Of a stretch of 64,000 nucleotides of DNA, positions 2,611 to 10,391 are shown one piece after another (positions within the stretch are counted from its first letter, which is position 1; every line of letters starts with the position of its first letter). The DNA lies in assembly GCA_015056625.1 (NCBI GenBank), contig SVFY01000002.1:1-64000 (forward strand). Direction: 5' to 3'. Both the position numbers and the translations under genes were made by a program. The DNA is from Butyrivibrio sp. (GTDB lineage: Bacteria; Bacillota; Clostridia; Lachnospirales; Lachnospiraceae). The notes beneath the pieces are model-generated. The model searched no databases and was not told where the DNA came from. It saw only the letters and a program-made list of their open reading frames with translations.

Positions 2611-2811
2611 ATGAGTACAGCGAAAGAACTCATAATAGACAGAGTTAATAACATGTCAGATGACATGGATGAAAATCAGATGATTGATAGGCTTTACATG
2701 CTTTCAAGATTGGAGCATAGCCGTAAGAGATGTCAAGAAGAAGGAACAATAAAAGATTCCGAGTTGGACGAGCATTTTAAGGAGAAGAGAAGGCAGTATG
2801 CAGGAGTATGA
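2611..2811 (+). CDS. Putative antitoxin of a ParE-type module (start trimmed to MSTAKELI)
   Basis: RBS aaaggag before the ATG at 2611; overlaps the downstream ParE-like toxin by 14 nt. Confidence 0.65.
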   Translation: MSTAKELIIDRVNNMSDDMDENQMIDRLYMLSRLEHSRKRCQEEGTIKDSELDEHFKEKRRQYAGV

Positions 2812-3115
2812 GCTTGAATGGTCTCCTGATGCACTTGATGACTTGGATGAAATCTGGGATACAATAGCCTGGGAAGGTGACCCGGATGATGCAGATTCTT
2901 TTATTGATCAGTTAAGGAGTGTTGCCAGAGATTTATGTGGCAATGCTAGGAAAGGAAGGATAATACCTGAACTTGGGCTTGAGAACTTCAGAGAAGCTTA
3001 TTATAAGGGTTATACATTGGTGTACGAGATAACCAAAGATTCAATTTTAATTCATGAAGTGTTTAACCAGAAGAGGATTTATATTAGATCCTATCCTAGA
3101 AGAAAAAGGCATTAA
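2798..3115 (+). CDS. ParE/RelE superfamily toxin
   Basis: MQEYELEWSPDALDDLDEIWDTIAWE...Y.KGYTLVYEITKDSILIHEVFNQKR, typical ParE/RelE fold pattern. Confidence 0.8.
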   Translation: MQEYELEWSPDALDDLDEIWDTIAWEGDPDDADSFIDQLRSVARDLCGNARKGRIIPELGLENFREAYYKGYTLVYEITKDSILIHEVFNQKRIYIRSYPRRKRH

Positions 3116-3307: not shown

Positions 3308-3919
3308 GTTGAGGATATCAGAAAGAGGCATGAAGAAATTGGGGATTTGACTGGAGATGAGAAACTATCAGGTTTTTCAAAAGAAGATCATATCATTCCA
3401 ATAATAACTCTTTGCATCTGTTTTGATAAGAAAAAATGGGTTGCACCAAGATCTCTTTTCGATATGTTTGGGAAAGTTCATCCAGGGATAGCGGAGTACG
3501 TTGATGACTATAGACTCAATCTGATAACTCCCGATGAAATAGAAGATTTTGAAAAGTTTTCCTCGGAACTTGGTGCAGTAATGGAGTTCATACACATTTC
3601 AGATGACAAGGAAAAGCTTCGTGATATAATTAAGGCAAGAGGAAACGAAAGTATTCACGTTAACACAGTGGATATGATCAATACCTATATTGGTACGAAG
3701 ATTTCTACAAAAAATGCGAAAGGAGGGCAAGTAAAAGTGTGTCAGGCATTACAGGAATTAATTGAAGATGAAAGAGCAGAAGGACGTGCTGAAGGAGCAG
3801 ACTTGCTTGCTAAACTCCTCAAGGCAATACAGCCAGGAAGTAAGGATCTTGATAAGGCTTTGAACGCTACAGATGCCGAAAGGAAAAAACTCTATAAGAA
3901 ATATGGCATTGTAGATTGA
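3308..3919 (+). pseudogene. Rpn family nuclease/putative transposase, N-terminally truncated
   Basis: Frame opens after a stop at 3305 with VEDIRKRHEEIGDLTGDEKLSGFSKEDHIIPIITLCICFDKKKWVAPRSLFDMF, the middle to C-terminal part of Rpn/PD-(D/E)XK family proteins; the catalytic N-terminus is absent. Confidence 0.65.
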
Positions 3920-5194: not shown

Positions 5195-6661
5195 ATGAGT
5201 AAGTGGTTTGAAAAGATAATGCAGCGCATTGGTAAAAGGGAGATGATCATCATTTCATCTGCCATTTTTGCGACTGCTTTTGTAATCATCCTGGTCATGG
5301 CGCTCATAAAAGGTTCCAACGGGGGTGTAAGTGAGAAAACAGCTATTGGCGAAGAAGCGCAAAACGCCACTGCGGCCGAGGAGGATATGCCCGTTATCGA
5401 GACAGCAACTGAGGGGATGAAGACAGAGTCAACTCCGGATACAACTGTACTTGCCAAAAAAGAAGGTGCGAAGGACGGATACCTTAACAGGTGCGTATTT
5501 CTTGGCGATTCAAGAACAGTTGCAATGGTCAACTATGGCTTTTTCAATGATGATGCCGCTTTGGCGCAGATTGGCATATCACATCCGGCATTTGCATCCA
5601 ATACATTCATTAACAATGCCGGTAAAGAATATACTTTAAAAACTTATCTGGCATCTCACCAGGCTCCTGTTATTTATATTCTTTTGGGAGTAAACGGTAT
5701 CAATGATCCCAGTGAGACCCATTATCGTGATACTTTTGTTTCGCTAATAGACAAAGTGGCTGAGATGGCACCTAATTCTAATCTTGTACTTGTGGCTATA
5801 GGTCCAGTGGATGATAACGGGATCTATAAAAATAGTGTCCAGAATGCATGGATAGACAAGTACAATGATTTTCTGCTTGAAACTGCAAAGGAGAAGCATA
5901 TTTTCTATCTCGATATCGCAGAAATTCTTAAAGGCTCTGATGGACAGGTTAAGTCTGAGTACAACGGCGGTGACGGACTTCATTATTCCGGAAAGGGATG
6001 TGAGGCCATATTCAGGTACATAGTAGAGCATCCTGTACCTCAAATATCTGATGAGGGCAAATATGTAGTTAAGTATATCAAGCCTGATCCAAACAGGATC
6101 AAGGTTACTATGGGTGATGAATCGGGAATTGACGAAGACAAGCTACAGGATCTTATGGATATGATGATTGGAACTCCAGAAAGTCAGGCTGTCTCAGATT
6201 CAAGTACTGAATCAAGTGAGTTGACAGAAGAGGAACTGCGTCTAATAGAAGAGGAAGAAGAGAGAAAGAAAGCAGAAGAGGAAGAAAAGAAGAAAGCCGA
6301 AGAGGAAGCCCAAAAGAAGGCCGAGGAAGAGGAGGCCAGAAAGAAGGCAGAAGAAGAGGAAGCCAAAAAGAAGGCAGAAGAAGAGGAAGCAAAAAAGAAG
6401 GCAGAAGAAGAGGAAGCTAAAAAGAAGGCTGAGGAAGAGGAAGCAAAAAGGAAGGCTGAGGAAGAGGAAGCAAAAAGGAAGGCTGAAGAAGAGGAAAGAA
6501 AGAAGGCTGAAGAAGAAAAAGAAAAGTCCGAAACAGAGGAAGATGAATCCAAAGAGGAAGACAAGGATAAAAGCGGACAGGGCAGCAGTGAGGAAACTGA
6601 AAAAGAAGAATCATCTGGTCAGTCTGAGGGCGATACCGGAAATCAGCCGGAAGGAGAATAA
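5195..6661 (+). CDS. Membrane-anchored SGNH/GDSL-type hydrolase with a long charged E/K-rich C-terminal tail
   Basis: N-terminal TM; FLGDSRTV block, GVNGIND, DGLHYSGKG; followed by AEEEEAKKK repeats. Confidence 0.85.
   Translation: MSKWFEKIMQRIGKREMIIISSAIFATAFVIILVMALIKGSNGGVSEKTAIGEEAQNATAAEEDMPVIETATEGMKTESTPDTTVLAKKEGAKDGYLNRCVFLGDSRTVAMVNYGFFNDDAALAQIGISHPAFASNTFINNAGKEYTLKTYLASHQAPVIYILLGVNGINDPSETHYRDTFVSLIDKVAEMAPNSNLVLVAIGPVDDNGIYKNSVQNAWIDKYNDFLLETAKEKHIFYLDIAEILKGSDGQVKSEYNGGDGLHYSGKGCEAIFRYIVEHPVPQISDEGKYVVKYIKPDPNRIKVTMGDESGIDEDKLQDLMDMMIGTPESQAVSDSSTESSELTEEELRLIEEEEERKKAEEEEKKKAEEEAQKKAEEEEARKKAEEEEAKKKAEEEEAKKKAEEEEAKKKAEEEEAKRKAEEEEAKRKAEEEERKKAEEEKEKSETEEDESKEEDKDKSGQGSSEETEKEESSGQSEGDTGNQPEGE
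6250..6530 (+). repeat. In-gene 27-nt tandem repeat encoding AEEEEAKKK/AEEEEAKRK
   Basis: Directly visible repetition of gaggaagcaaaaaagaaggcagaagaa units. Confidence 0.85.
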
Positions 6662-6671
6662 GAAGATAACT

Positions 6672-6705
6672 AAAAAAGGAAAGCTCAAAAAAGCTTTCCT
6701 TTTTT
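6672..6705. terminator. Bidirectional rho-independent terminator between the SGNH hydrolase and the tRNA
   Basis: AAAAAAGGAAAGCT-caaaa-AAGCTTTCCTTTTTT. Confidence 0.85.
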
Positions 6706-6709
6706 GTAG

Positions 6710-6783
6710 TAGCGAGAGGGGGACTTGAACCCTCGACACCGCGGGTATGAACCGCGTGCTCTAGCCAGCTGAGCTACCTCGCC
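6710..6783 (-). tRNA. tRNA with CAT anticodon (Met, or Ile2)
   Basis: Reverse complement GGCGAGGTAGCTCAGCTGGCTAGAGCACGCGGTTCATACCCGCGGTGTCGAGGGTTCAAGTCCCCCTCTCGCTA folds as a cloverleaf; anticodon loop TTCATAC; CCA not encoded. Confidence 0.93.
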
Positions 6784-6931
6784 ATAAGTGCCTGCTCATT
6801 GGAGCCGACTAAGATAATATAACGCGAAACCACCCATATTGTCAACAACTAATTTACGATTTTAATTCCTTTTCATTTCGACAACATCATGTGATAGTAT
6901 TATCTATAAGAATCACTGGTGGGAGTTGAGT

Positions 6932-8794
6932 ATGAAAGAGAAACAATTGACCTTGTCACAGCTGTGCAAAGAGCTGTCCATATCTTATGCAACAGGCAGA
7001 AATTGGCTAAGACTTGGTAAGATCATTCCCACTTATAGCGACTCTGGAGTACCACAGTTTAGCATTTCATATGTAACTAATTTAAAAAAGGATTTAGGGG
7101 CCTGCAACAATTCATCACTTAAGAGCCGCAGGAACAAGAAATATAAATCCGGCTTTGGCTTATACGAATCCTACGTCTCAAAATCTTCTCCAAACATCAG
7201 GGCGGTATCAGATATTGTTAATTATATAAAAGATAATGAAGTTGAAGTGACAGAAGATATACTTTTAGCACTTCTTTCTGACTGTGCGGGTAAACTTATA
7301 AAAGATAAGTACAAAGGAGAAAAGGGCGCCCGTTGCCAAATGAATTACATTGATGGAGATAAAGATTGCGTAGCCCAAATCTCAACGGCTCACCCGGATC
7401 TTTTTTGCGCAGATTACACGTACATTTCCACAGAGGATACCCTGGGGCTTCTCTACATCTCTCTAAGGAGCCTGAAAAACAGAAAAGAAAAAGGCGCATA
7501 TTACACACCTACAGAGGTTGTGAACAGCCTTATCAGTAATCTCTTTTCCGGAAAAGACATTACATCAAAAGAGATAATCGATCCCTGCTGCGGTACAGGT
7601 AACTTTATTCTGCAGCTCCCAGAGACTGTAAAAAGTGAAAATGTTTATGCCAATGATATCGATGATATAAGCGTAAAGTTGGCAAGGATAAACTATGCTC
7701 TTAAGTACGATATCAGTGACAGAGATGTGGTCATAAGTCACATTACTCAGTCTGATTTTCTCATTGATAATGGTGAAAAGAAATATGACATTATCCTGGG
7801 GAATCCCCCCTGGGGGAGCGAAGTTCCCTACGACGATTTCGTTGAAAGAGCATTAAAAAACCTTAAGGAAAATGGACATCTGTCCTTTGTGCTTCCTGAG
7901 TCCATACTTGGTGTAAAATCCCATAAGAAGATCAGGGAGTTCATGATGTCATCCTGCAGACCTAAGTATGTGGAGTTCCTTGGAGAAGCCTTCCATGGGG
8001 TTCAGTGTCCGTCTATAATTCTGCACGTGGAACTTACAAAGGGATCATTTACAACAAAAGGCCTTGTAGTTAATGACGGCGGAAGAGTGTTTACTATAGA
8101 CACTGATCGCGACGCTTCCGCAGATTCATTAAGCATTAAGATGACCGACAAAGAGTACGCTCTGATCCAAAAGCTAAGTGATGGTAAAAACAAGGCTACA
8201 CTTAAGGGTAACGCGCTTTTTGGTCTTGGAATCGTGACAGGAGACAACAAAAGATATATATCGCAGGTCAAGACGTCTGATAATGAGCCCGTGTTTAAGG
8301 GGGCTGATATAGAAAAATACAGGTATAATGCAGCGGAGAACTTTATCTCTTTTACCCCAGAAAAGTTCCAGCAAGTGGCGCCAGAGCACATCTACAGGGC
8401 AAAAGAAAAACTCCTGTATAAATTTATCAGCAGTGACCTGGCATTTGCCTATGACGATAAGGGAACGCTGTCATTAAACAGTTGCAACATCCTGATTCCG
8501 CAGATCCCGGGACTTTCAATAAAGTATGTGATGGCAGTCCTCAATTCCAGTGCTGCACAGTTTGTTTATTCCAAGCTGTTTGGCTCTGTCAAGGTACTTC
8601 GTTCGCACCTTGAGCAGATTCCAATACCCATTGCAGATGACAGGAAACAAAAAGAGATCATAGCTTATGTTGAAAAGATCATTAAAGCTAAAAAACCTCA
8701 GAAGGAAATAGAAAAGACCCTGGATAAAAAGATAGCTGAACTATACGGCTTGACAGGCGATGAGTACCAGATGATAAAGGCTTCTTTAAAGTGA
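6932..8794 (+). CDS. Solitary N6-adenine DNA methyltransferase (Eco57I/TaqI-like) with N-terminal HTH
   Basis: Motif I region IIDPCCGTGNF, motif IV NPPW, GAYYTP upstream motif; N-terminus LSQLCKELSISYATGRNWLRLGKI resembles a MerR/excisionase HTH; C-terminal target-recognition-like region. Confidence 0.85.
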   Translation: MKEKQLTLSQLCKELSISYATGRNWLRLGKIIPTYSDSGVPQFSISYVTNLKKDLGACNNSSLKSRRNKKYKSGFGLYESYVSKSSPNIRAVSDIVNYIKDNEVEVTEDILLALLSDCAGKLIKDKYKGEKGARCQMNYIDGDKDCVAQISTAHPDLFCADYTYISTEDTLGLLYISLRSLKNRKEKGAYYTPTEVVNSLISNLFSGKDITSKEIIDPCCGTGNFILQLPETVKSENVYANDIDDISVKLARINYALKYDISDRDVVISHITQSDFLIDNGEKKYDIILGNPPWGSEVPYDDFVERALKNLKENGHLSFVLPESILGVKSHKKIREFMMSSCRPKYVEFLGEAFHGVQCPSIILHVELTKGSFTTKGLVVNDGGRVFTIDTDRDASADSLSIKMTDKEYALIQKLSDGKNKATLKGNALFGLGIVTGDNKRYISQVKTSDNEPVFKGADIEKYRYNAAENFISFTPEKFQQVAPEHIYRAKEKLLYKFISSDLAFAYDDKGTLSLNSCNILIPQIPGLSIKYVMAVLNSSAAQFVYSKLFGSVKVLRSHLEQIPIPIADDRKQKEIIAYVEKIIKAKKPQKEIEKTLDKKIAELYGLTGDEYQMIKASLK

Positions 8795-8888
8795 GAAGTT
8801 TGGTGCAATATCTGGGCAGAAACGCTCCACTGAATGAGATATAATCCGAGAATAGAGGAATTAAATCTCATCCATTGGAGCGTATTTC

Positions 8889-10391
8889 ATGAAAACAGAA
8901 AAGATCATAGTAGATCAAAACACAAACGTACCATTCAATAACAATGTGGATTACTGCGTAGGCACAGGGCGTCTTGGCCTTGCACTGACAGAGGAATATT
9001 TAAAAGAGCTTGAGTTTGTTCAGGACATGATCGGCTTTTCTTATATAAGAGGTCATGGACTTTTTTGCGATGATGTTTCAATCTATCACGAGTATGAGGA
9101 AGATGGAGTAACAAAAGTAGAGTACAACTACACTTACATTGACAGGATCATTGACAGCTTCTTAAGGCTCAATATCCGCCCATACTTAGAGCTTGGTTTT
9201 ATGCCGGAAGAGCTTGCAAGTGGCACCCAGACTGTATTTTACTGGAAGGGCAACACAACACCTCCCAAGGACTACAAAAAATGGACAGATATGGTGATAG
9301 CTCTTTTGTCCCACTTAATGACAAGGTACGGCGAAGAAGTGGTGACCTGGCCCATAGAAGTCTGGAATGAGCCTAATCTTCCAGAATTTTGGTATGAAGC
9401 TGACATGGAGGAGTACTTTAAGCTGTTTAAAGAAACCTTCACTGCCATCAAAGCATTTGACGAGCGCTTTAAGATTGGTGGACCTGCCATTTGCGGAGTG
9501 AAAGATGCTGAGTGGATCAAGGTATTTCTTGATTTTTGCAAAAGAGAAGGAATCTGCCCTGACAGGATTACAAGGCACCACTACACTGTAGATTTTCCTG
9601 AGAGGGTAGGACACTATGACTACTCAAGGCTTCAGGATCCCGACGAGCGCTTTGACAGTCTCAAGGTAACAAGGGACATCGTTGATTCCTACGAGGAATT
9701 TAAAGACCTTCCGATCCACCTTACGGAGTTTAGTACTTCCTATACTCCCAAGGGTGTTATCCATGACACCAACATAAATGCAGCTTACCTTGCAGGCCAG
9801 CTTTCAAGGCTTGGGGATGTGAATGAAGCATACTCCTACTGGACCTTTGGAGATGTGTTTGAGGAGCAGGGAGTTCCAACATCTCTTTTCCATGGAGGTT
9901 TTGGTCTTGTGGCTGCAGGAAATATCCCAAAGCCAACCTTCTGGACCTTCTACTTTTACAAGCAGCTGAAGCTCTTTGGAGATCAGTGTATCTACAGGGA
10001 TGACAACGCTGTGATCATAAAGGGTGAAAAGGGCTATGCAGGAATCCTGTGGAACATAGATGAAGAGGATATGGAAAAAGAGATATCGCTAATGGTACCT
10101 GTTGGGACAGAGCAGACTCTTGTTGTAAAGACTGTGGATGAAGAAACCACCAATCCATTAAAGCTCTGGCATGACCTGGGAGAGCCTGCTTATCCAACCA
10201 AAGAGGAAACAGAGCTGATAAAAAGCGCTGCCTACCCACTTGTTAAAAGCAGCATAGTAGCGCCTGTAGATGGAAGAGCAGCCATAACCCTCACTGTAAG
10301 AAGAAACGGAGTAGTTTACTTTACCATCAGAAAAAGAAATCTCACAGCGGACAGGGGATATGACTACGACAGAGTAGTTTCTTTTCACTGA
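8889..10391 (+). CDS. GH39 family glycosyl hydrolase (beta-xylosidase-like)
   Basis: IEVWNEPNLPEFW acid/base motif and LTEFSTSY nucleophile region. Confidence 0.88.
   Translation: MKTEKIIVDQNTNVPFNNNVDYCVGTGRLGLALTEEYLKELEFVQDMIGFSYIRGHGLFCDDVSIYHEYEEDGVTKVEYNYTYIDRIIDSFLRLNIRPYLELGFMPEELASGTQTVFYWKGNTTPPKDYKKWTDMVIALLSHLMTRYGEEVVTWPIEVWNEPNLPEFWYEADMEEYFKLFKETFTAIKAFDERFKIGGPAICGVKDAEWIKVFLDFCKREGICPDRITRHHYTVDFPERVGHYDYSRLQDPDERFDSLKVTRDIVDSYEEFKDLPIHLTEFSTSYTPKGVIHDTNINAAYLAGQLSRLGDVNEAYSYWTFGDVFEEQGVPTSLFHGGFGLVAAGNIPKPTFWTFYFYKQLKLFGDQCIYRDDNAVIIKGEKGYAGILWNIDEEDMEKEISLMVPVGTEQTLVVKTVDEETTNPLKLWHDLGEPAYPTKEETELIKSAAYPLVKSSIVAPVDGRAAITLTVRRNGVVYFTIRKRNLTADRGYDYDRVVSFH

Follow-up and report, generated by a model that had tools for sequence, protein, structure and literature searches.

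A solitary N6-adenine DNA methyltransferase of Butyrivibrio, probably of Type II restriction-modification descent and kept for its mark

The 64,000-nucleotide stretch of Butyrivibrio sp. DNA analysed here (the window) carries a DNA methyltransferase (MTase) gene between a tRNA gene and a glycoside hydrolase gene. The question raised by this locus is why a bacterium should keep such an enzyme with no restriction endonuclease (REase) beside it. The original prediction proposed a solitary MTase with an N-terminal helix-turn-helix (HTH) domain, possibly with a housekeeping epigenetic role. The features concerned are the following.

6709-6783, minus strand: tRNA-Met(CAT), flanking gene, in the same arrangement in two sister species
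6784-6931, no strand: intergenic region between tRNA-Met and the MTase gene, about 95% identical in three species, with a ribosome binding site at 6918-6925
6932-8794, plus strand: solitary N6-adenine DNA MTase of the gamma class, 620 aa, comprising HTH, MTase and TaqI-type recognition domains
6947-7030, plus strand: N-terminal HTH, HTH_17/MerR-like, residues 6-33
7466-7969, plus strand: catalytic domain, residues 179-346, from Pfam N6_Mtase/Eco57I and conserved columns
7580-7606, plus strand: motif I, DPCCGTGNF, residues 217-225, within the catalytic domain
7802-7813, plus strand: motif IV, NPPW, residues 291-294, within the catalytic domain
8207-8656, plus strand: target-recognition region, residues 426-575, from Pfam TaqI_C and regional identities
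8889-10391, plus strand: GH39 glycoside hydrolase, a neighbour only, present in 26 of 79 genomes of the genus

The MTase reading frame runs from an ATG at 6932 to 8794 on the plus strand (620 codons), with GGTGGGAG lying 6 nt before the ATG, and is present as a single copy in its genome. The protein is matched by Pfam N6_Mtase (1.5e-18), Eco57I (2.8e-11) and TaqI_C (4.7e-27, residues 453-565). In an alignment of 20 diverse homologues, from Lachnospiraceae to Patescibacteria, NPPW and most positions of DPCCGTGNF are invariant, which bears out the MTase motifs and C-terminal recognition region on which the original prediction was built. The dN/dS ratio against two sister species is 0.15-0.18, and the gene is therefore under purifying selection. 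Judged from its sequence, the frame encodes an intact gamma-class N6-adenine MTase that is expected to be catalytically active. The window's clade and L033/L034 have a loop after NPPW (7814-7831) that is about 20 residues shorter than that of other homologues. Synonymous divergence over 6932-10391 forms a mosaic: in its C-terminal part the MTase hardly differs from that of locus L031, and its HTH part is nearest to that of L032, a pattern suggestive of interspecies recombination.

The relatives of this enzyme indicate its descent. PADLOC assigns the window MTase to the type II MTase family PDLC03348 (5.3e-110), and in distant relatives the next gene encodes a conserved protein of 246 aa, carrying an E-x-K motif and identified by PADLOC as the type II REase PDLC03414 (8.5e-72), a PD-(D/E)XK enzyme. 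Among 19 loci from Lachnospiraceae other than Butyrivibrio, 6 (L057, L060, L061, L063, L067 and L073) have a relative of this REase beside the MTase, and the same holds for most Patescibacteria homologues; REase-linked relatives occur in Treponema as well. The window protein belongs to the same family across its HTH, catalytic and recognition domains, and differs from the complete systems in having no REase adjoining it or elsewhere in its genome assembly, which is 85% complete. In genome G232 a solitary MTase is followed, after 110 bp, by a 38-aa REase stump of 71% identity. The linked REases and this stump indicate a restriction-modification (R-M) family from which the nuclease is often missing and has once been visibly lost. 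The comparison with Type IIG enzymes made earlier is not sustained, since the protein has 620 aa and no nuclease domain; it belongs to a Type II R-M family in which REase linkage is seen in other genera. The REase fossil of G232, together with the sporadic distribution of the family in Lachnospiraceae, could be taken to mean that the window gene is a decaying R-M remnant without present function. This is very unlikely in view of its low dN/dS, its intact motifs and the near-universal presence of the MTase in the genus.

Domain and family profile searches, including Pfam and PADLOC, gave no nuclease match in the 620-aa protein. A hidden PD-(D/E)XK nuclease at the N-terminus, for which a check had been proposed, was ruled out: the AlphaFold2 model (mean pLDDT 85.7) contains only helices in residues 56-160, which leaves no room for such a core. 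The flanks are a tRNA and a GH39 enzyme without a nuclease, as first described; a six-frame REase profile search of the MTase flanks was negative, and no nuclease candidate was found among the genes adjoining the MTase. A profile search for this REase family gave no match in the window's own genome either, so that the predicted lack of a restriction partner agrees with both searches at the stated assembly completeness. Among the 79 genomes of the genus, the REase-family profile found a clear match only in G426, and a marginal fragment (E=0.003) in G398 lies in another, 670-codon frame. As a control, the REase was recovered where it was already known; a single REase query was insufficient, having missed the G426 REase, and a second query and the profile were added. 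Besides a solitary copy, genome G426 holds a second MTase accompanied by two REase genes, of which one is broken. At this second locus (L096, G426:C34:1-11500) the MTase carries two N-terminal HTHs, and a transposase-like gene lies between the two REase genes. A functioning R-M system with an REase that is unlinked or belongs to another family would be compatible with the 85% completeness of the assembly and with the unlinked partners known from other R-M systems (PMC3874152), but it is highly improbable, as the REase-family profile is negative in the window's genome, the genus provides one clear exception, and the genes adjoining the MTase hold no nuclease candidate.

The distribution of the MTase differs with the taxonomic level. 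A homologue occurs in 21 of 397 genomes (20 of 334 genera) in a broad draw of Lachnospiraceae, and in 66 of 79 Butyrivibrio species genomes, or 42 of the 47 of good quality, both genus counts taking homologues of any lineage. The near-universal presence in the genus agrees with a housekeeping role, whereas the sporadic occurrence across the family is a pattern that the original prediction had itself named as adverse. The presence of the MTase thus extends to over half of the Butyrivibrio species, the measure applied to orphan MTases in an earlier survey (PMC4752239), in which 57% of orphan MTases were conserved at genus level against 9% of R-M MTases. Because nearly every Butyrivibrio species has the MTase without a cutting partner, the mark probably benefits the cell. 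The five good Butyrivibrio genomes without the MTase were all sampled at 54-57% G+C, and the flanks of nearly all carriers in the genus have 33-47% G+C.

This conservation is not that of a single orthologue at a stable locus, as at least three clades are found at different loci in the genus. Thirty-four copies lie upstream of DAHP synthase, either immediately or with one gene between; a further 12 precede a PAS-domain gene, four are at the window's locus and the rest are elsewhere. Nearly every carrier genome has one copy. At the DAHP locus (34 Butyrivibrio genomes, for example L075 and L105) a XerC/D-like recombinase gene is usually nearby. The order of tRNA-Met, MTase and GH39 is identical in three species, with intergenic DNA about 95% identical, and a fourth species has the MTase in the same region. 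A clean empty site was not found, the GH39 gene of other genomes lying elsewhere. In the MTase tree, a quick tree in which some branches are long, the DAHP, PAS and window locus types form separate clades with sequences from other genera interposed, and genus membership switches at least seven times. A single clade uniting the DAHP and window types is rejected by the AU test (p=0.0008). The idea of a housekeeping epigenetic MTase therefore stands as regards near-universal presence and falls as regards one ancestral gene. The genus has either captured the family several times or sorted old paralogues; the second possibility applies to the DAHP and PAS clades, which need not have arisen by separate captures.

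Taken together, the most probable explanation, to which a probability of roughly seven in ten is given, is that the gene encodes an m6A MTase of Type II R-M descent that is kept for its mark without an endonuclease. In such an enzyme, the TaqI-type C-terminal domain would read a short motif, and the gamma-class domain would flip the adenine and move a methyl group to it from AdoMet, while no cognate enzyme would cut unmethylated sites. Selection would act to keep the mark itself, presumably as a regulatory or protective methyl mark. Nearly every species has one MTase, and these MTases occupy different loci and belong to three or more lineages; more than one capture or replacement of the MTase in the genus is therefore probable. 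A bolder form, which is unlikely as a whole, would have Butyrivibrio depend on one m6A mark whose writer gene was replaced more than once, each time by a member of the same R-M-derived family that was captured independently and lost its nuclease, so that the mark and not the gene is conserved.

The recognition domain bears on what this mark may be. Residues 426-575 are the best conserved region of the MTase in nearly every comparison, including those with REase-linked members from other phyla, and show 44-62% identity to the window protein outside its own clade, from which a common target across the MTase family may reasonably be inferred. The conservation of this domain between solitary and REase-linked members is one of the observations expected if the solitary MTase were a shield, guarding the cell, or DNA entering it, against R-M systems of its own family in the way that solitary Dcm attenuates host killing by its cognate EcoRII system (PMC3874152). 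Complete systems of the family circulate in Lachnospiraceae, and the coexistence in G426 of a solitary copy with a second, REase-linked MTase fits the same role. For the same enzyme in Butyrivibrio today this role is doubtful, as hardly any genome of the genus now has the REase (a single clear case among 79), and close plasmid or phage copies of the MTase were looked for and none were found, the best plasmid match being 31%.

GTCGAC was considered as the target motif. It is the most depleted six-base palindrome in samples of five REase-positive genomes, with 3 sites seen against 51 expected (controls, 36 of 61). Whole-genome GTCGAC counts are low in G272, G169 and G059; the GTCGAC/GACGTC ratios in G171 and G386 resemble those of controls, and values just as low occur in several genomes that lack the MTase. 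Within the genus, raw GTCGAC density differs between MTase carriers and non-carriers (p=1.4e-5), a difference that arises because G+C content differs (about 41-43% against 54-57% in five of six sampled) and that is gone after G+C correction (rank 9 of 64). The whole-genome counts and the G+C correction failed to uphold the motif cleanly, and GTCGAC is therefore only a weak lead. Published Butyrivibrio methylomes were not found in a literature search.

The predicted MerR/excisionase-like HTH is weak in the window protein alone (HTH_17, E=0.09). HTH_17 is matched by 12 of 20 family members, with a best value of 2e-6, and T21, N24 and W25 (T-x-x-N-W in the HTH) are invariant across 20 homologues; at the family level the sequences thus mark the HTH as real. 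It is common to solitary and REase-linked members, several of the latter having two, so the HTH is an inherited feature, neither an epigenetic novelty nor tied to an epigenetic function. Its likeliest part in the ancestral R-M system was to repress the MTase's own gene or to provide an extra DNA contact. The N-terminal domain of the m5C enzyme M.SsoII represses its own gene (PMC3978073); M.SsoII, M.Ecl18kI and M.EcoRII share with the window MTase an N-terminal regulatory domain, but as m5C enzymes they belong to a different catalytic family. A search of 6784-6960 for an operator turned up no close inverted repeat that was convincing, despite conservation of about 95% in this region.

Among solved structures, CamA of Clostridioides difficile (PDB 7LNI, 7LT5), which the original prediction had named for comparison, is closest to the window MTase. 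It is the top profile match to the family (4.5e-33), and a Foldseek search with the window MTase model ranks it first (E 1.6e-25; TM-score over the query 0.53-0.58); in both respects M.BseCI and M.TaqI come after it. CamA, whose recognition sequence is CAAAAA, is likewise solitary and conserved in its own taxon, and the MTase and recognition folds are alike. It differs in lacking the N-terminal HTH region of about 160 aa (CamA residue 18 aligns with profile position 182), in having about 18% identity, and in being strictly conserved within one species, whereas the window family comprises several lineages in a genus. M.BseCI and M.TaqI are also gamma-class N6-adenine MTases with a TaqI-type recognition domain, but they have no N-terminal HTH region and possess REase partners. 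A more specific version of the preferred explanation would make the window enzyme a regulatory epigenetic MTase of the Dam, CcrM or CamA kind, with a mark that alters promoter activity or replication as part of Butyrivibrio housekeeping. With CamA as its nearest fold, 42 of 47 good genomes carrying the MTase, and the genus-level conservation typical of orphan MTases (57% against 9%; PMC4752239), this version is put at slightly under even odds, given that the MTase belongs to several unrelated lineages and loci in the genus.

Genus-conserved solitary MTases are already known as a pattern; what is notable here is that several lineages are involved, nearly always with one MTase per genome. The change of an R-M enzyme into a solitary MTase is a seldom visible transition, and here complete R-M systems, an REase fossil and many nuclease-free copies are comparable within one bacterial family. 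If the Butyrivibrio lineages share one motif, a major rumen genus could serve to test selection on the mark itself, and the motif would be relevant to transforming these hard-to-engineer fibre degraders.

A hairpin of about 18 pairs (8822-8883) lies between the MTase stop and the GH39 start and covers the GH39 ribosome binding site. It has no Rfam match, and it is conserved, with z values of -6.2 to -6.9 in three species and pair-preserving changes in L032; a role in GH39 translation control or as an operator is possible. On the side of tRNA-Met away from the MTase there is an insertion hotspot (window 6661-6709; L031 5596-7779; L032 1705-7779). Named by eye, its contents include, in L032, some 6 kb in which an integrase-like fragment lies at the tRNA, and, in L031, a nucleotidyltransferase-like gene pair. 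Elsewhere in the window, the truncated ORF at 3347-3919 resembles a PD-(D/E)XK transposase/Rpn protein (Transposase_31, E=0.053), and the gene next upstream (2798-3115) is, by eye only, RelE/ParE toxin-like.
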